A stretch of 30,351 bases of DNA, from positions 1-30,351 of IMG/VR virus record IMGVR_UViG_3300007514_000048. One strand, written 5' to 3'. The position numbers and the translations under genes were made by a program. The stretch is from a virus. The notes under the pieces were generated by a model. That model saw only the letters and a list, made by a program, of their open reading frames with translations, had not been told where the DNA came from and did not search any database. Below are positions 4,123 through 30,351 of the stretch, one piece after another; position 1 is the first letter of the stretch; every line of letters starts with the position of its first letter.

Positions 4123-4719
4123 TTAAAAATAATTTATTTGTATGTTTAATCTTTGTTGTTTGTCTGAACAACTTGTACTACAATGTTTTAATCCAGGATC
4201 AAACATTACAGCTCTGTTTGCAACACTTTCAATTTTTTGTGTTCCTAATTTTGTATAACCATCATTGGAGTTTAAGTGATATAAACAACCTCTATGTGGC
4301 CAAGGATAATCATTATGTATAGCGTGTTCTTCTACACCTCTTCCTGGTTGAGACCCTACATTAATAAACATATTTACCTTAACTCTAATTAATGCTCTTG
4401 GTTGTATCTTATCTAACAATGGATAACATACTTTAAAAAATGTTTGGTCTATATGCATTGAAGATTGATTATATAAAAGATTACCCAATAACATAAAAGG
4501 TGGGTCTGATGGTTTTTGATCTGCTGTAACCACAGGATTAAAATACCAAGGAAATATTTTTGACCCAATAACTTCTTGCATTTCCTTATGATGGTGTGGT
4601 TCAAGAAAGTCATCTATAATAACCACCTCACCTGTTTTTATTTCTATATGTTTGTCTAATCTTTCGTCTCTATGCCAAGGTTCTTTACCTTGCATTTGTT
4701 CTTTGGTAACATCAACCAT
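4123..4719 (-). CDS. 2OG-Fe(II) oxygenase-like protein
   Basis: 198 residues with a recognisable dioxygenase core: HNDY (H135, D137, the HxD motif), a following PWPHRGCLYHLN beta-strand region, a distal His in FDPGLKHCST (H179) and Arg190 in QQRLNIQINY. The N-terminal half is family-specific. Family knowledge supports Fe(II)/2-oxoglutarate-dependent oxidation; the substrate is unknown. It overlaps the late sigma factor gene 55 by eight bases and so is probably translated from the same mRNA. It is one of four distinct oxygenases of this fold here; their surrounding sequences differ too much for recent tandem duplication to be obvious. Confidence 0.78.
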   Translation of the reverse strand: MVDVTKEQMQGKEPWHRDERLDKHIEIKTGEVVIIDDFLEPHHHKEMQEVIGSKIFPWYFNPVVTADQKPSDPPFMLLGNLLYNQSSMHIDQTFFKVCYPLLDKIQPRALIRVKVNMFINVGSQPGRGVEEHAIHNDYPWPHRGCLYHLNSNDGYTKLGTQKIESVANRAVMFDPGLKHCSTSCSDKQQRLNIQINYF

Positions 4720-23656: not shown

Positions 23657-24466
23657 TTATCCTATCATCATTGCTGGATTTAATTCGTATGATGACCTTA
23701 ATTCTGATTCTAATTTGTCTTGTTCTTGTAAAGCTTGTGTATAAATTTCCTCACCTTTTAAGGTAACTCCACCTATCATAGCTACTCCAGCGAATTTACT
23801 TAAATTTGTCCCCCATTGTTTTTTAAATAGAGTAGTTGTATATCTCTTTAACCAAAGGTCATTATAAACATCTGTATAAGTGTTCGGGTCTAATTTTCTA
23901 TATGCTTCGATAACTAGATATTCTCCAACGGCTAAATCATTTTTCCAATCCATATCAACCCACAATTTGTTATCGTGCATATTAAATCTGTATGGTTTTT
24001 CACCTACTAGTACGTGGTCAAGGAAATCCAAATGCCTTAAAACTACATCATAGTTAATAATAGATGTTGATGAAAAATCATATAGGTCGTTTAATCTTAA
24101 TTGGTATCTAACATCAAATAGATTTAAATTTCCTTTATTAGAAAATGGAAAAATATTAATGACAGACATAACCGTTTCAGGTACAATTATATAATTGTTA
24201 CCTTCTTTCCAGTTGGTCACCGTACTATCTTTACCAGTAACCGCTTCTGTACTATCAGCTGTTGCTCTATCTTTATCTGCTTGAGTTAATTGATATTTTA
24301 AATATGTTCTTTTAATACCATCATAGTGATATTGAGACCAATATTGTAATGCTTCGTCCAATCTATCTTCTAGTTGGTCGTCATCAGCATTTATCTCTAT
24401 AACTGGCTTGCCTAAAGACCTCAAGGCATATTGTTTTAAATTTTCTCTGCTTGCTGGTTCTGCCAT
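23657..24466 (-). CDS. 13: Neck protein gp13
   Basis: 269 residues (T4 309). Head-completion protein that binds the portal after packaging. The N-terminal SRENLKQYALRSLGKPVIEI and DQLEDRLDEALQYWSQYHYD are the diagnostic conserved block, followed by YIIVPETVMSVINIFPFSNK, YQLRLNDLYDFSS and LWLKRYTTTLFKKQWGTNLS near the C-terminus. It is the first gene of the late morphogenesis operon 13-17, led by a late promoter 26 bases upstream and a TTAGGAAAC ribosome site. Confidence 0.95.
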   Translation of the reverse strand: MAEPASRENLKQYALRSLGKPVIEINADDDQLEDRLDEALQYWSQYHYDGIKRTYLKYQLTQADKDRATADSTEAVTGKDSTVTNWKEGNNYIIVPETVMSVINIFPFSNKGNLNLFDVRYQLRLNDLYDFSSTSIINYDVVLRHLDFLDHVLVGEKPYRFNMHDNKLWVDMDWKNDLAVGEYLVIEAYRKLDPNTYTDVYNDLWLKRYTTTLFKKQWGTNLSKFAGVAMIGGVTLKGEEIYTQALQEQDKLESELRSSYELNPAMMIG

Positions 24467-24491: not shown

Positions 24492-24499
24492 TATTTATA
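24492..24499 (-). promoter_or_regulatory. Late promoter TATAAATA (genes 13-17)
   Basis: Exact late octamer on the minus strand (context TTCTTATAAATATAGGG) in the 37-base gap between the bilin reductase gene and gene 13. It marks the boundary between the accessory operon and the conserved structural block. Confidence 0.88.
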
Positions 24500-24503
24500 A
24501 GAA

Positions 24504-25193
24504 TTAAGCAGTTATCTGTATTTTTGGGAACAGATTATCCGTACAGAATAATTTAACATCTGGTTCTGGTAATCCTAGCGATAACATTACTCTAGGAGTA
24601 TGTGGATTTTGTTGTTGGTGCTCACAATAATAGTTTTGAGCCTCTATAACATCTTCCTCTTTTGACCTTCCAGCGTATTTTCCTATTTTTTCCAAGTATT
24701 GTACTAGATTATATGTAGCTAGACCACATACTTTATTCAATTCTTTTTCAGTATTAATGTTACCAGCTGCTATCATACCTTTACTGAATATCTTTTTAGC
24801 CCAATCTGGCAATTCTCTAGGTTTAGTTGGTCTATACCATTCTGTTTCGTTAACAAACCACTCCGTTAATTCGTGGTCTTTCTTTAATAGTGGACTGAAA
24901 TCGTGGAAAGCACCTGTGATTTTATTCTTACCAGCAATAACATCAAAACCATAAATTGGTCCGTCATTATTAAGATTTGGAAATAGACAAATATGGGCCA
25001 TCCAAAGGCCCTTTTGTTTTCTTGCGTCCACTATATCAACGTGGGCTCTTCTACACTCTTTAGTTTTCCAAGTCCTATTAGTCCAAGTATCATTATTAAA
25101 TCTCTCCATACCTGGTTCCGAATATTCGGTACCATACATATTCAAGATTTTTACTATCTCATCTGTAGTTTTTATTAATTTCTCCCAAATCAT
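24504..25193 (-). CDS. pcyX: Ferredoxin-dependent bilin reductase, PcyX-like
   Basis: Reduces biliverdin to a phycobilin using ferredoxin (family PF05996: PcyA, PebS, PcyX). 229 residues, the compact phage size. Conserved blocks: CRRAHVDIVDA (47-57), GLWMAHICLFPNL (62-74), PIYGFDVIAGKN (79-90), FHDFSPLL (96-103) and FCTDNLFPKI (216-225). H67 and D84 are 17 residues apart, like PcyA His88 and Asp105. Retaining this His favours PcyX, the marine-phage enzyme reported to make phycoerythrobilin, over cyanophage PebS, where I recall Asn at the site. The acidic residue near the C-terminus is D219. It overlaps the heme oxygenase gene by four bases, giving coupled substrate supply. The product bilin must be confirmed experimentally. 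Confidence 0.9.
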   Translation of the reverse strand: MIWEKLIKTTDEIVKILNMYGTEYSEPGMERFNNDTWTNRTWKTKECRRAHVDIVDARKQKGLWMAHICLFPNLNNDGPIYGFDVIAGKNKITGAFHDFSPLLKKDHELTEWFVNETEWYRPTKPRELPDWAKKIFSKGMIAAGNINTEKELNKVCGLATYNLVQYLEKIGKYAGRSKEEDVIEAQNYYCEHQQQNPHTPRVMLSLGLPEPDVKLFCTDNLFPKIQITA

Positions 25194-25762
25194 TCCATCA
25201 ACTCTCTAAATAATTGTGTTGCGTAATCAAAACATAATAGCGCTTCATTTACTATATTCATTTGATAAGCATTGTAATAATTATTTATCTGTTCACGAAT
25301 CACTCTTTTACATTCATTTGGATTTTTAAACTTAAACATCATACCAGGTCCAGGTACCTTTTTTCTAAGCATTTGACCACCAGATAAATCACCTAAATGT
25401 CTAACATAAATGTGAGCCATTAGTTTTTCGGGGTCATCTTTAATCTTCTCCATATGCTCTATATACCTTATTGTAGATGGACAAGTATATGGTTTTTCTT
25501 CTCTTTTCCATAATGATTTAAAATCTCTATCAATCCATTCCGCTCTTTCAATACCAGGCATCCATTTAAACAAGCCATTCGCCCTAGCATTTACCTCTAA
25601 AGGCGAATAACATTGTAAATTATTATAAAGAAAAGTAGCGTATAAATCTGGATCGATTTTACCTGACAACATTTCTTTTACAAAGGCTTGACGTTCAGCG
25701 TCTCTATGATGTTTCATAGTTGCTTCTACCAAGCCTTTGACCGTTTTATTTACTTCAACCAC
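25190..25762 (-). CDS. ho1: Heme oxygenase
   Basis: Cleaves heme to biliverdin, CO and Fe2+, 190 residues. The proximal-ligand segment HHRDAE (H19) matches the H-x-x-A-E pattern of heme oxygenases. The distal helix has HLGDLSGGQML (122-132), with the flexible glycines and the water-organising Asp125. The start is GTG at 25762; the next ATG would remove the helix before the heme ligand. The GTG overlaps the DUF454 gene by 13 bases and a GGGAAAAGAG site lies upstream. Electrons would come from ferredoxin. The adjacent bilin reductase uses its product. Confidence 0.95.
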   Translation of the reverse strand: MVEVNKTVKGLVEATMKHHRDAERQAFVKEMLSGKIDPDLYATFLYNNLQCYSPLEVNARANGLFKWMPGIERAEWIDRDFKSLWKREEKPYTCPSTIRYIEHMEKIKDDPEKLMAHIYVRHLGDLSGGQMLRKKVPGPGMMFKFKNPNECKRVIREQINNYYNAYQMNIVNEALLCFDYATQLFRELME

Positions 25763-26181
25763 GCTACTCTTTTCCCTTCATTAATTCTTTGGTCGTGAAT
25801 TTCTTTAGTTGCTGGATATCTCCAAGCCCAAATTGCCACTAACGCCATACTACCACCACTCCATAAAATTGCATTAAGATTATGTGTGCTGTGCCATAGA
25901 ACAGCAACCGTACTTGCCATTACTATGACCATTGACCATTTAGCATAATTTGGAAAAACTCTATACTTCATCCAACCAGTTAAGAAAGGACCAAAGTATT
26001 TGTGATTGTATAACCACTTATGCATTTTTTCTGAACTCTTAGCAAAACAATAAGCCGCAAATACTAAAAAAATACTAAATGGAATCCCTGGAGTAACCAC
26101 ACCTATGTACGCCATACCTAAACTCAACATACCAAGAGTGTACCACATCCATTTTGGAAATCTACTCTTTTTTAATTCCAT
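25750..26181 (-). CDS. DUF454 (YbaN-like) small inner-membrane protein
   Basis: 143 residues from the ATG MELKKSRFPKWMWY. The DUF454 pattern is clear: LGMLSLGMAYIGVVTPGIPF, IFLVFAAYCFAKSSEKMHKW, then LYNHKYFGPFLTGW, followed by two further hydrophobic helices (WSMVIVMASTVAVLW and LWSGGSMALVAIWAW). The predicted topology is about four helices. The function of the family is unknown. The ATG at 26181 is chosen over a frame from 26220 because AGGAGGGG lies nine bases before it. It overlaps the preceding membrane gene by ten bases and the heme oxygenase gene by 13, suggesting a joint role with heme/bilin metabolism; this is inference. Confidence 0.88.
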   Translation of the reverse strand: MELKKSRFPKWMWYTLGMLSLGMAYIGVVTPGIPFSIFLVFAAYCFAKSSEKMHKWLYNHKYFGPFLTGWMKYRVFPNYAKWSMVIVMASTVAVLWHSTHNLNAILWSGGSMALVAIWAWRYPATKEIHDQRINEGKRVAWLK

Positions 26182-27197
26182 AACATTACCCCTCCTATCA
26201 GGATAACCATTGAACACCAAGTTATTAATGTAGTTAAGTAATATTTTAATGGTGTCTTAAAATAACCTTTACCTATCGCCAAGCATTTGTGCATTGGTGA
26301 TAATATATAACCACAAAAATCAACAGCAAAAAACCAAGGTAAGTAAGCAAGTCCATAGACACTTACTAACAATACGGTTATGGCTGCGAACCGTGAGGAA
26401 CTTCCTAATATGAAAGAACCTATAAAACTCATTAAACTAATTAACCAAAATCCTGTAGGTGATGTTATATCTAATCCTGAATTATATAATGTTTCGTGTA
26501 TGAGAGGAGAATAAGCTGTAGCGTAATTTGCCATTACAATAATACCAGCAATAAAACCTAAAAGTTTCCAATCTATATAACTTAATATTTTCTTATAATC
26601 AAAAGTACCTGTTACCGACATATAATATAATGTTAGTAATCCAAATACCCATAAGAAATGGATACCTGCCATAACACCAGCAATACCTAATACATAAGGC
26701 ACCACATATCTGGTTATTCTGCTTATCTTAATTTCTTTTTTAATTCCGTCTAATTCTATTCCATCTTCTTTTACAAAGAAAATTAAATAACCTAAAATAA
26801 AAGCAACCGAAACTGCAAGTAAAGGCCAAATAATTCCAAACCAAGCACCATAAGTTAAACCAAAAGCTGCCATAGGTAATATGACCGTCTTCTCTAATGG
26901 TGACCAAAAATAATAATGATGTGTACTTAAATAATCTATAACACCTAGTTTATGCCGTTCTTTTCCTCTAGGCGCCATACTATCTAATAGGCCTGCTGTT
27001 AAGGTGACTCGTCCTTTAATAGGTAAACAACCTGTTAAAGCACTTACTGAAGCTATTAATGCTTTTTTGGATTTTAATATTTTATGAAAATATCCATAAA
27101 AGTCTCCAAATAATTTATGGTCTTTTACTATACCTGCAATTATCATTATAAATGCCAGTAAGAAAAGATAAACTTGTCCTTGTATAATTAAATTCAT
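26172..27197 (-). CDS. Polytopic membrane protein, DUF401-like permease candidate
   Basis: 341 residues with about nine to ten hydrophobic helices spread through the chain. The first helices contain GQVYLFLLAFIMIIAGIV. The cytosolic-looking loop ALTGCLPIKGRVTLTAGLLD, followed by YLSTHHYYFWSPLEKTVILP, resembles the PIpGG...FRHiwEyfwPlyPg signature I recall for DUF401 integral membrane proteins. That match is from memory and needs a profile search. The substrate is unknown. It overlaps the upstream oxygenase by four bases (ATGA) and the DUF454 gene by ten, so it is part of the coupled operon leading into heme oxygenase. A transport role in heme, iron or bilin handling is a guess. Confidence 0.65.
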   Translation of the reverse strand: MNLIIQGQVYLFLLAFIMIIAGIVKDHKLFGDFYGYFHKILKSKKALIASVSALTGCLPIKGRVTLTAGLLDSMAPRGKERHKLGVIDYLSTHHYYFWSPLEKTVILPMAAFGLTYGAWFGIIWPLLAVSVAFILGYLIFFVKEDGIELDGIKKEIKISRITRYVVPYVLGIAGVMAGIHFLWVFGLLTLYYMSVTGTFDYKKILSYIDWKLLGFIAGIIVMANYATAYSPLIHETLYNSGLDITSPTGFWLISLMSFIGSFILGSSSRFAAITVLLVSVYGLAYLPWFFAVDFCGYILSPMHKCLAIGKGYFKTPLKYYLTTLITWCSMVILIGGVMLWN

Positions 27198-27805
27198 ATG
27201 ACCAACTTTGTTAAATCTGCTTCGGTTCCAATGTCTCCTTTAAAAAATGTATTAAAGGACATTGATACCCTAGGTGTATCAATTTCTGTTGTAGAAACTT
27301 CGTGTAATAATGTAGATGGAAATAAAATCAATCTACCTATTTCAAACTTAATAGCAACCTTTTGAGAATTGTAAGTATTACCTTCTTTGAATGCTGTTAA
27401 GTTTCCAAATACGGTATTAGTATCTCTATAAAATATTGTAGGTTGTCCTTCACCTTGATTGGAAGTACCGTGTACATATAATATAGCACTAATCAAACTA
27501 TTTGGATGGTAATGTGTATGATGTTTGGTAAATTTTCTGTTTATATTAAACCAAGATTGTGTAATATATACTTGGCACTTGTCATCTACACCTAACTCAT
27601 TACAAAATCTGTATAAATGTTTTTTACACCATATTTTTAATTTGGAAAATTGATGTTTGTTTAACATCTTCTTATTAGTAGTTGTGAAATTACCACCGTT
27701 ATTGGGGTGCATATCAATATCATCTAATACTTTTCTTTCCTCTACCGAAAAATCATATAAATCATCTGACTTATATATTGGTGTTGCAAATACATTTTCA
27801 ATCAT
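27194..27805 (-). CDS. 2OG-Fe(II) oxygenase-like protein (PF13759 type)
   Basis: 203 residues. It starts MIENVFATPIY, the usual opening of this phage family. The core has QSWFNINRKFTKHHTHYHPN, SLISAILYVHG, distal LILFPSTLLHEVSTTE (H168) and PRVSMSFNTFF (R179). H98-x-H100 is the likely proximal metal pair, followed by the NS-SaxlYv strand typical of the family. The substrate is unknown. It is coupled to the DUF6065-like gene by a one-base TAATG overlap and to the membrane permease-like gene by ATGA. It most resembles the oxygenase at 1665-2351 in type, but with a different N-terminal region. Confidence 0.82.
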   Translation of the reverse strand: MIENVFATPIYKSDDLYDFSVEERKVLDDIDMHPNNGGNFTTTNKKMLNKHQFSKLKIWCKKHLYRFCNELGVDDKCQVYITQSWFNINRKFTKHHTHYHPNSLISAILYVHGTSNQGEGQPTIFYRDTNTVFGNLTAFKEGNTYNSQKVAIKFEIGRLILFPSTLLHEVSTTEIDTPRVSMSFNTFFKGDIGTEADLTKLVI

Positions 27806-28422
27806 TATTTTTCCTCATCTTGACAAATCATTTCATAACTCTTTTCAGTAAGAGGTACAAGTTGACCTAATGGTGTTCCCGATTTAACGGTATGTTCACC
27901 TTCTAATATATGCCAATCTAATTGTATATTTATCTCTTTGCTTAACGTAGGGTCCAGGATTCCCATAACATTTGAAAACTCAAAGTGGTCTGGATATGTT
28001 ATAGGCAAAAATATAAATTTTAAACCTTTTGGTGCTACAACGTTCCAAGGTGTATGTATCTTAATAATACTCTTTAATGTATTTGGACTCCTTGGTATTA
28101 AACTCATAATATCATTTGTATGTGTATCTATTAAATTTCTAGGACCTATTGTCTCTTTGTTTACTTCCCATTTAAAACCAGGATTATCAGGCATTGTTTT
28201 AATTGTAAAATCAAACCAAGCACGGACAATGTAACCAGTTTTCATTAACTCAAACATTCCTGGACATCTATATGGATGGTCAAAATCTGTAAATAACTCT
28301 TTTACTCTTAAATAATCTTCCTTTGCTTTTTTAGTCCATTCTCTTCCTATTTCTTTTGCCTCTACTATAGGCATTAAATTAGATAGACCTTTTAATTTAG
28401 ATACAAACTTAATTCTTTCCAT
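27805..28422 (-). CDS. DUF6065-like protein next to a tryptophan halogenase
   Basis: 205 residues from the ATG MERIKFVSKLKG; a GTG at 28431 would add three residues. Conserved-looking features are HPYRCPGMFELMKTGYIVRA, KIHTPWNVVAPKGLKFIFLP, GILDPTLSKEINIQLDWHIL and EGEHTVKSGTPLGQLVPLT. I recall this layout from proteins labelled DUF6065 that often neighbour tryptophan halogenases and 2OG oxygenases; this needs a profile search. The second half (paired strands, with GTPLxQxxP like cupin turns) may be a beta barrel. It overlaps the halogenase gene by 14 bases. The function is unknown, but genomic linkage suggests it acts on the same substrate. Confidence 0.75.
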   Translation of the reverse strand: MERIKFVSKLKGLSNLMPIVEAKEIGREWTKKAKEDYLRVKELFTDFDHPYRCPGMFELMKTGYIVRAWFDFTIKTMPDNPGFKWEVNKETIGPRNLIDTHTNDIMSLIPRSPNTLKSIIKIHTPWNVVAPKGLKFIFLPITYPDHFEFSNVMGILDPTLSKEINIQLDWHILEGEHTVKSGTPLGQLVPLTEKSYEMICQDEEK

Positions 28423-29902
28423 ATGATTCACTTAAATATTCATAATGATTTTTAAAAAATAATTTTGCTTGTTCTACTCTATTATATTGATTAGCAATAA
28501 AATATTTGGCATACTTCTCTATTTCATCTGGTAATTTTTTAGAATTAAAACCTCCACCTGCGTGTAGCATTGAAAACCATTGTGTTAAGTTAAACATTGA
28601 GGAACTTCTATAGAAAAAAGCAGTCTTATTAATTTGAATATCATTTATTAATTGTTGAGAAGGTTGTGGTAATTGTCTTTTAGATTGATTTCTAATTTCT
28701 TGCCAAAACGGTGTATCATCTTTTGTACTATAATAATAATGAGAAAATATAAATGCAAGTATCTCATCATTAATTTCATTAAAGTAACCATTAATCATTT
28801 CTTTTGATTGCCAATTATTGTTATTTAATAACTCTACAACTGCTCTAACAATACTAGTAGTCCAAGTAAGATTATTTGCTTCTAAAGGTTCTATAAAACC
28901 TGCAGCTAAACCTACAGCACATACATTTTTTAAAGCTATATGTTTATGTGTACCTGCTTTAATATCAATATGTAATGCTGTAGATTTATCTTCACCAATG
29001 CTGTCTCTCAATTCTTTTTCTGCCTGCTCTGGTGTTATATGTTTACTAGAATAACAATAACCGTTTCCTATTCTTTCATAGGTTGGTATTTGCCATCTCC
29101 AACCAGCGTTCATTGTAATTGCTTTTGTATATGGGTGGCATTCTTCTTTAGGATTTGTATATGATTTTGGCATTGCAACTGCCTTATCACATAATAAAAT
29201 ATCTTTATATGGTATATGTGGTTCTTTTAACGCACCTTCTAAAAGCATACTTTTAAAACCAGAACAATCAATATATAAATCTGCTTTATAAAAATTACCT
29301 TCCTCATCTATTAGTGCTTTTATTCCATTCTCATCTACTTTGTAATCTGTTATTTTTGTTTCAACTAATTTAAATCTATTTGTTGTACTTCTATAATTTA
29401 CACAATGTTTAGCTAATACATCAACTATTTTTAAAGCATTGAAATGTACAGCACCATAACTTCGGTCTGCAATATTAAAATTAGTATCTAACCCATACCA
29501 TTTTGGACTTATATTCTTTTTTGCCATTTGATAAGAAGGTTGAAATCTTGTCCACTCTTCATTACTTTTGGAACCAAAATAATCTGTAATAAGTAAGTGT
29601 TGACTAACTAAAGAATTTTCTGGTGGTTCATTATCAACAAAGTATTTGTTTTTAGTCCAACCATCTAACTCAACACCATATTTAAAAGTAGCATCCGTTG
29701 CCGACATCCAATCAACTGGATGTAATCCACAATCATATAAAAATTGTGCTGTTGCTGGTTGTGTGCCTTCTCCAACTCCGATAGGACCTTGGCGTTTATC
29801 TTCTATTAAAGTAATATTAGTATCTGGCATTAAATTTTTCAACATATAGGCAGCCGTCAGCCAGCCACTCGAACCACCTCCAAGAATTATTATATTTTTC
29901 AT
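28409..29902 (-). CDS. Flavin-dependent tryptophan halogenase family protein
   Basis: 497 residues from the ATG MKNIIILGGGSSGWLTA. A longer frame to 29965 is rejected because this ATG overlaps the preceding stop as TAATG. Motifs: FAD-binding GGGSSG (8-13), IGVGEGTQPAT (41-51), the catalytic-lysine segment ATFKYG (K74, equivalent to PrnA Lys79), IDCSGFKS and the halogenase signature WRWQIP (268-273). Also present is AVGLAAGFIEPLEANNLTWT, the FAD/active-site loop. Such enzymes make HOCl or HOBr from FADH2, O2 and halide and direct it through the lysine to an indole. The natural substrate in phages is unknown; free tryptophan, a peptide or another aromatic compound is possible. No flavin reductase is seen in the window. 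Confidence 0.93.
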   Translation of the reverse strand: MKNIIILGGGSSGWLTAAYMLKNLMPDTNITLIEDKRQGPIGVGEGTQPATAQFLYDCGLHPVDWMSATDATFKYGVELDGWTKNKYFVDNEPPENSLVSQHLLITDYFGSKSNEEWTRFQPSYQMAKKNISPKWYGLDTNFNIADRSYGAVHFNALKIVDVLAKHCVNYRSTTNRFKLVETKITDYKVDENGIKALIDEEGNFYKADLYIDCSGFKSMLLEGALKEPHIPYKDILLCDKAVAMPKSYTNPKEECHPYTKAITMNAGWRWQIPTYERIGNGYCYSSKHITPEQAEKELRDSIGEDKSTALHIDIKAGTHKHIALKNVCAVGLAAGFIEPLEANNLTWTTSIVRAVVELLNNNNWQSKEMINGYFNEINDEILAFIFSHYYYSTKDDTPFWQEIRNQSKRQLPQPSQQLINDIQINKTAFFYRSSSMFNLTQWFSMLHAGGGFNSKKLPDEIEKYAKYFIANQYNRVEQAKLFFKNHYEYLSESYGKN

Positions 29903-30351
29903 TATTGACCTATCCCAAACATTTTCCGATTTTTTTCTAATACAAAGATACCTAACCCATTCCAATAATCAGTTGAATCTTCTATTTTTCCAGTTATCTC
30001 TTCTTTATATAAAACTTTATATCCCATTTTCTTAATACTTTCTAGTGTTGGCACTCTAACATTATCCCAATTCCAATCATCTACTATAAAAACAAATTGG
30101 TTATCCATTGCCGAATCCCATTTAGGTAATATATCATTATGAATACTATGGTCACCATCATAAAATAATATATTAGATTTCCAAGGTAATTGTTTTAAAT
30201 CAAACCCTAGAAAATCTCCTTGATAAATTTTAACCTCACTTTTACCAATATACTTTCTTAAATTCTTTACAAATATTTCCCTATCGTTTCCAACCTCTGC
30301 TTTTATATTCACTTCTGGCCTAGCAGGTGCTGTGTTCTTACCTTGCCAATT
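29902..30351 (-). CDS. SAM-dependent methyltransferase-like protein, 5' end cut off
   Basis: Open to the right edge; 149 residues are seen, starting NWQGKNTAPARPE. The first apparent start inside (GTG 30312) is not convincing because the frame continues past it. Features: EVKIYQGDFLGFD, SNILFYDGDHSIHNDILPKW, FVFIVDDWNWDNVRV and a C-terminal strand GLGIFVLEKN. The DGDH followed by a DDW strand is typical of Methyltransf_24-like class I methyltransferases; the glycine-rich SAM motif would lie beyond the window. It is joined to the halogenase gene by a one-base TAATG overlap. The assignment is moderate because only the C-terminal part is visible. Confidence 0.65.
   Translation of the reverse strand, partial: NWQGKNTAPARPEVNIKAEVGNDREIFVKNLRKYIGKSEVKIYQGDFLGFDLKQLPWKSNILFYDGDHSIHNDILPKWDSAMDNQFVFIVDDWNWDNVRVPTLESIKKMGYKVLYKEEITGKIEDSTDYWNGLGIFVLEKNRKMFGIGQ

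Follow-up and report, generated by a model that had tools for sequence, protein, structure and literature searches.

Genes for tryptophan halogenases have been reported in T4-like cyanophages for years (PMC3037559, PMC2984593, PMC10452541). One phage halogenase, VirX1, has been characterised, with a solved structure (PMC8407142; PDB 6qgm); it is reported to halogenate many small aromatics in vitro (PMC8407142) and to have a large, open active site that has no substrate lid and takes bulky substrates (PMC8407142, PMC7948982). We found no other characterised phage halogenase. VirX1 has been used as a biocatalyst, its natural substrate is unknown, and cyanophage halogenases have been a puzzle for years. 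In this study, we analysed a 30,351-nucleotide stretch of viral DNA (IMG/VR record IMGVR_UViG_3300007514_000048; hereafter, the window) in which a halogenase gene lies in a run of overlapping genes. A preliminary description of the window had presented a methyltransferase, the halogenase, a DUF6065 protein, and a 2-oxoglutarate (2OG)-Fe(II) oxygenase as a tailoring set without a known pathway; with phage halogenase genes long reported and VirX1 characterised, the set can no longer be regarded as an orphan. Here, we describe its conserved linkage to putative tail-fibre-tip genes and consider what its enzymes may act on.

The four genes lie on the minus strand and are coupled by overlaps of 1, 14, and 1 bases, exactly as first described. 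The first of them is cut by the window edge, with its 3' part at 29902-30351. A longer version of the contig (IMGVR_UViG_3300009104_000031; 49423 bases) begins with the 30351 bases of the window, and on it the whole gene spans 29902-31599 and encodes a 565-residue protein (phrog_1458). The methyltransferase of the preliminary description is the C-terminal third of this U32-peptidase-like/methyltransferase fusion (hereafter, the fusion protein). The fusion stop and the halogenase start overlap by 1 base (TAATG) at 29902. The halogenase gene (28409-29902) shares 14 bases (28409-28422) with the gene of the DUF6065-like protein (27805-28422; start ATG 28422, with GTG 28431 possible), and a second TAATG, with a 1-base overlap at 27805, joins the latter to the 2OG oxygenase gene (27194-27805). 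All three overlaps were checked on the sequence. The bounds first given to the cluster, 27194-30351, are too narrow at both ends, as the fusion gene continues upstream and the run extends downstream from a permease to a bilin reductase. Upstream of the fusion gene and on the same strand, the longer contig encodes proteins of 261, 295, and 472 residues and a 1300-residue tail fibre with CBM5/12 carbohydrate-binding repeats. The 472-residue protein, encoded at contig positions 33357-34775, belongs to phrog_1417 of unknown function and is the putative fibre tip. Neither the window nor the upstream extension to 49.4 kb contains a peptide synthetase or other biosynthetic scaffold, as the preliminary description had stated for the window.

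The conservation of this neighbourhood was evaluated in loci collected from IMG/VR with one gene per search, so that the neighbours were unselected. Single-protein searches of viral contigs retrieved this contig alone, and profile searches were needed to find relatives. The search with the DUF6065-like family yielded 80 loci, 43 of which were distinct at 90%. Among these 43, a halogenase was found within 3 kb, always on the same strand, in 31, the fusion protein in 26, and one or both of them beside the DUF6065-like gene in 42; a 2OG oxygenase lay within 4 kb in 42 as well. The search with the fusion protein gave 79 further loci, of which the 50 with at least 3.5 kb of upstream sequence were used for upstream counts. 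The 295-residue family was located just upstream of the fusion protein in 50/50, the 261-residue family in 45/50, and the 472-residue family upstream in 48/50, while downstream a halogenase was present in 26 and a DUF6065-like gene in 29. In the reverse direction, a profile of six close fibre-tip sequences (an alignment of 16 being too diverse) found the fusion protein downstream in 25/25 loci with 4 kb of room. The counts from 50 and 25 loci were not de-duplicated and include near-identical contigs and the present one; many of their members share no more than 43-50% identity with the protein of the window. Judged from these gene neighbourhoods, the association is far beyond chance, and the absence of a conserved association, named beforehand as the outcome that would speak against a functional set, is contradicted by the 42 of 43 DUF6065-like loci.

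Two architectures were recognised. In type I, represented by this contig, the fibre shaft is followed by the 472-residue tip, the 295- and 261-residue proteins, the fusion protein, an optional halogenase, one or more 2OG oxygenases, the DUF6065-like protein, the permease, heme oxygenase (hemO), bilin reductase, and the neck gene gp13. In type II, found in phages Syn9, Syn10, S-RIM44, S-CREM1, P-TIM40, Sf-FP1, and Sf-FR1, glycine-rich genes annotated as tail-fibre/adhesin genes (phrog_863, phrog_6202) come first, then a small gene, after which one or two halogenases, the DUF6065-like gene, and serial 2OG oxygenases follow, and gp13 closes the locus in several cases. VirX1 belongs to a type II locus. 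It is CPUG_00131 of Syn10, which shows no difference from 6qgm across the alignment listed, and is the second halogenase of that locus, directly before the DUF6065-like CPUG_00130. The Syn10 record labels VirX1 as a hypothetical protein. In the present contig, the block from the 472-residue protein through the 295- and 261-residue proteins to the fusion protein matches cyanophages Syn33 and S-H25, and the fibre shaft matches Pelagibacter phage Mosig; the tip block and its enzyme therefore appear to move together. The putative fibre-tip family has a conserved C-terminal end, SSGHCxWRx, which was noticed post hoc. The terminal Trp is present in 17 of 21 tips from loci with a DUF6065-like gene versus one of nine from loci without it (Fisher p=6e-4, uncorrected for shared ancestry), and it tracks the DUF6065-like gene, not the halogenase.

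The window halogenase (497 residues, starting at the ATG at 29902) covers PF04820 profile positions 1-443 of 458 (E=1.3e-87) and matches phrog_2928 (6e-98). The flavin adenine dinucleotide (FAD) motif GGGSSGW at residues 8-14 and the WRWQIP motif are kept. In an alignment of 126 phage halogenases, Lys74 falls in a column of invariant Lys, and Glu341, the Glu of the EPLE motif, in a column that is Glu in 124. The catalytic Glu is followed by the loop EANNL, which occurs once in the 126; ESNGL and ESTGL are usual. Relatives in the PDB include the Trp 5-halogenase 8fov, VirX1 (6qgm), and PrnA, and where Trp halogenases of solved structure align best with the window enzyme, the alignments stop short of the substrate-lid region. 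By its residues, the enzyme is likely of the flavin-dependent halogenase chemistry class and looks active, as had been proposed from the FAD motif, Lys74, and WRWQIP; Glu341 can be added to that list. In a tree of 128 halogenases, it was placed in a well-supported group of 16, every member of which lies beside a fusion protein, and VirX1 was placed in another group of cyanophage type. Further halogenase lineages also occur at the fusion-protein locus, and hence recruitment of halogenases to this site seems to have happened on more than one occasion.

The partner proteins were compared at the levels of sequence and predicted structure. In the model of the fusion protein, residues 1-275 aligned with the U32 peptidase 5d88 (Mk0906; Z 15.2, 208 residues, 3.7 Å), and the C-terminal part aligned with O-methyltransferases (Z 16.6). 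The U32 match came from a second aligner; the Foldseek matches listed were methyltransferases only. Of 23 relatives, 21 matched Methyltransf_24 (best 8.7e-11), and seven Cys are invariant in 23 sequences. Because PF01136 (U32 peptidase) gave no match at E<=1, the U32 assignment of the N-terminal domain is a remote one. The 2OG oxygenase matches PF13759 over all of its 101 positions (1-101; E=4.6e-20) and phrog_81 (3e-35). The PHROG/GenBank naming of 2OG-oxygenase-like genes at 27194-27805 and related loci as "DNA endonuclease V" (phrog_274) or "ferrochelatase" (phrog_3531) is probably misannotation.

The DUF6065-like protein matches phrog_7084 (3.1e-39). The name DUF6065 is plausible but remote, because PF19541 is matched by 5 of 49 relatives (best 1.6e-4) and not by the window protein itself. 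An AlphaFold2 model (mean predicted local distance difference test score 95.2) suggests a dUTPase fold. dUTPases fill both the Foldseek and the VIA lists, the best VIA match having Z 10.5 over 120 residues at 2.6 Å, and the Foldseek E values of about 1e-3 make this likeness remote. A GILDP...GTPLxQ stretch of the family, with a near-invariant Asp, aligns with dUTPase motifs 3 and 4; inspection of the alignment by eye did not identify motifs 1, 2 (PRSS-like), and 5 (glycine-rich, C-terminal). Two tailed viruses of haloarchaea, HF1 and HCTV-8, also have DUF6065-like genes, there with baseplate and adhesin/tail-fibre genes as neighbours and without a halogenase. A scan of genome contigs gave two matches, a Prochlorococcus single-cell contig and a contig labelled Nonlabens xiamenensis; the latter, which carries a P-TIM40-like halogenase/DUF6065-like block at identical coordinates, probably represents phage sequence or contamination of that assembly.

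Past 27194, the overlapping run continues on the minus strand. The 2OG oxygenase gene shares 4 bases (ATGA) with the gene of a membrane permease-like protein (26172-27197; phrog_14035, weak CitMHS match at E=0.015). Successive overlaps then join the genes of a DUF454 membrane protein (25750-26181; PF04304, 1.5e-26), a heme oxygenase (25190-25762; PF01126, 4.8e-24), and a PcyA/PcyX-like ferredoxin-dependent bilin reductase (24504-25193; PF05996, 1.2e-18), the last two being the known phage hemO/bilin reductase cassette. The run stops 37 bases short of the gp13 homologue (23657-24466, minus strand; gp13 profile match), the conserved downstream border, which is collinear with the annotated gp13 of HTVC008M, S-RIM44, and Mosig. 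The permease-like family recurs at the corresponding locus in pelagi- and cyanophages. Two further 2OG-oxygenase-like genes lie amid structural genes at 1665-2351 and 4123-4719.

A T4-type late-promoter-like TATAAATA is located at 24492-24499 on the minus strand, at the end of the run and just before gp13. The window has six such sites (8429, 11218, 11893, 17095, 19655, and 24492), all on the minus (gene) strand and most of them 20-92 bases ahead of structural genes, as T4-type late promoters would be. Because their number in the window is not raised against chance, with only strand and position favourable, they lend weak support to late expression. The coupled enzyme genes themselves point the same way as the late structural genes. 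The virus itself has T4-like structural genes, and its genes place it in Pelagimyophage/Kyanoviridae. Its TerL is 77.1% identical to that of Pelagibacter phage Mosig EXVC030M and 65.4% to that of HTVC008M, and its tail fibre matches that of Mosig with 754 bits. On the TerL identities, therefore, the virus is a Mosig-like pelagimyophage, and its host type is SAR11 ocean bacteria.

We favour, at a little under an even chance, the reading that this is a tail-fibre-tip locus whose late enzyme set modifies the phage's own fibre tip. The preliminary description had left the target among a host metabolite, a protein tryptophan, and a phage product. The neighbourhood favours a phage product, namely the phage's own tail fibre, and makes a host metabolite or free tryptophan less so; as an enzyme target, the fibre is plausible on genomic grounds. 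The enzymes are placed on the tip because of the obligate synteny with fibre-tip genes (50/50, 48/50, and 25/25), because two unrelated fibre-tip types share the partner genes, and because the lid-free open site of VirX1 accepts bulky substrates. We infer late expression, an action of the enzymes on the tip, and the individual chemical steps. Late in infection, the enzymes would act on the newly made fibre-tip (adhesin) protein. The halogenase would use reduced FAD, supplied by host flavin reductases, with O2 and a halide abundant in seawater to form hypohalous acid (HOX), which, guided by Lys74, would brominate, iodinate, or chlorinate an aromatic side chain exposed on the protein. Side chains would be hydroxylated by the 2OG oxygenases, and the fusion protein might carry out an iron-sulfur (Fe-S)-dependent oxidation and a methylation. 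The protein with the dUTPase-type fold would serve as a binding or docking partner and not as a dUTPase. The outcome would be changed receptor binding or particle stability. We put forward more tentatively the wider proposal that marine T4-like phages carry a dedicated module for the post-translational modification of tail-fibre tips. It would combine a VirX1-kind halogenase and 2OG hydroxylases with the U32-type Fe-S/methyltransferase fusion and with a dUTPase-fold protein repurposed for docking, and would act on the phage's own adhesin.

Several observations weigh against fibre-tip modification. The fusion proteins nearest to that of the window (61-67% identity) mostly lie without a halogenase, their genes being mostly coupled directly to the DUF6065-like gene, often by a 4-base overlap. 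Because these relatives do without one, the halogenase is, on this comparison, an optional and dispensable insert. Halogenases outside both architectures show only a partial link to fibre genes, with 2OG oxygenases as commoner neighbours. Aromatic enrichment failed as a substrate prediction, since fibre tips of halogenase-carrying phages have no Trp or Tyr excess over those without the enzyme (Trp 2.26% versus 2.28%, Tyr 5.19% versus 6.03%). A premise is also involved, in that we infer the tip identity of the 472-residue protein from its position, composition, and PHROG. Neither biochemistry nor virion mass spectrometry on such fibres was found. Finally, a hemO/bilin-reductase metabolic cassette lies within the same run, and adjacency to fibre genes could stem from an insertion hot spot.

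The last point leads to the main rival explanation, that these are auxiliary metabolism genes in a hot spot between fibre and neck genes, directed at 2OG levels or at a small host metabolite such as tryptophan, indole, phenolics, a signalling molecule, or an antimicrobial. It agrees with the presence in the run of the established hemO/bilin reductase cassette (PMC11480375) and of a permease-like protein, with the halogenase of HTVC008M sitting between terminase genes, and with the small aromatics that VirX1 accepts in vitro (PMC8407142). Published interpretations also point in this direction: phage prnA has been assigned to metabolism (PMC10452541) or to antibiotic protection, the latter called speculative by its source (PMC2984593), and the 2OG oxygenases to nitrogen/2OG control (PMC3037559). 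A mere hot spot, however, does not predict the obligate pairing of the fusion protein with the fibre-tip block (50/50 and 25/25) or the recurring overlap-coupled order of fusion protein, halogenase, 2OG oxygenase, and DUF6065-like protein, and no biosynthetic scaffold or pathway gene lies nearby; we consider it less likely than modification of the fibre tip. If the enzymes instead modified the host surface, a receptor, or its glycan late in infection, against superinfection or the sticking of released particles to debris, linkage to adhesin genes would fit equally, the CBM5/12 repeats of the tail fibre would find a role, and joint exchange of tip and enzymes would suit a matched pair of adhesin and receptor modifier. 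This analysis yielded no evidence for a surface substrate, and known members of the halogenase, 2OG oxygenase, and U32 families are cytoplasmic, which makes a surface target improbable.

Obligate linkage to fibre tips is also typical of fibre assembly chaperones. The DUF6065-like and fusion proteins might accordingly be assembly factors without chemistry, with the 2OG oxygenases and the halogenase as the only enzymes, acting elsewhere; the haloarchaeal DUF6065-like relatives beside adhesin/tail-fibre genes without a halogenase would suit such a role. The seven invariant Cys and the methyltransferase domain in 21/23 relatives suit an enzyme, and we regard this explanation as more improbable still. 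That the genes are chance neighbours or decaying cargo with no common function is the least credible of all. It can draw on the variable presence of the halogenase among close relatives, but the genes are all intact and overlapping, their order recurs in dozens of diverged phages, and the locus counts from the DUF6065-like, fusion-protein, and fibre-tip searches already contradict it.

If modification of the fibre tip is the correct reading, the natural substrate of VirX1-like halogenases would be the phage's own receptor-binding fibre and not a secondary metabolite. To our knowledge, this would be the first halogenated structural protein of a virus. It would also explain the abundance of 2OG oxygenases beside tail genes in T4-like marine phages and would assign a context to the "hypothetical" families phrog_7084, phrog_1458, phrog_1417, and phrog_1409. 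The reading is checkable by virion proteomics of the cultured phages Syn9, Syn10, S-RIM44, and P-TIM40. Halogenases and 2OG oxygenases of phages were already known, as was the hemO-bilin reductase cassette; the conserved fibre-tip module is new. In the literature covered, from which subscription journals were mostly absent, no paper was found that ties the halogenase or 2OG oxygenases to DUF6065-like proteins, the fusion protein, or fibre tips.

In the hemO-pcyX tetrapyrrole cassette of Mosig and its relatives, heme oxygenase and bilin reductase likewise directly precede gp13 (PMC11480375), whereas in this contig the pair forms the end of a longer series of overlapping genes; unlike this contig, Mosig has no halogenase, DUF6065-like, or fusion-protein gene annotated at the locus. 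The fusion protein resembles the U32 peptidase/hydroxylase superfamily in the alignment of its N-terminal domain with Mk0906 and in its invariant Cys, and differs from it in lacking a PF01136 match and in being joined to a methyltransferase. The DUF6065-like protein shares a predicted fold and a motif 3/4-like stretch with the dUTPase family (PF00692), but the window protein has no dUTPase Pfam match and its neighbours are not those of nucleotide metabolism. dUTPases and VirX1 form trimers, and fibres do too. In T4-like cyanophages and HTVC008M, the genes of prnA/Trp halogenases and 2OG-Fe(II) oxygenases agree with those of the window in protein families, in Kyanoviridae membership, and often in genome region, although the literature treats them as single accessory genes. 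VirX1, too, differs from the window halogenase, which is about 30% identical to it, falls in a separate strongly supported clade, and has the EANNL loop after the catalytic Glu. Both are phage flavin-dependent halogenases, similar over most of their length (E=3.4e-56), with the catalytic Lys and Glu kept in the window enzyme, and both loci have a DUF6065-like gene directly behind the halogenase, 2OG oxygenases downstream, and tail-fibre genes upstream.

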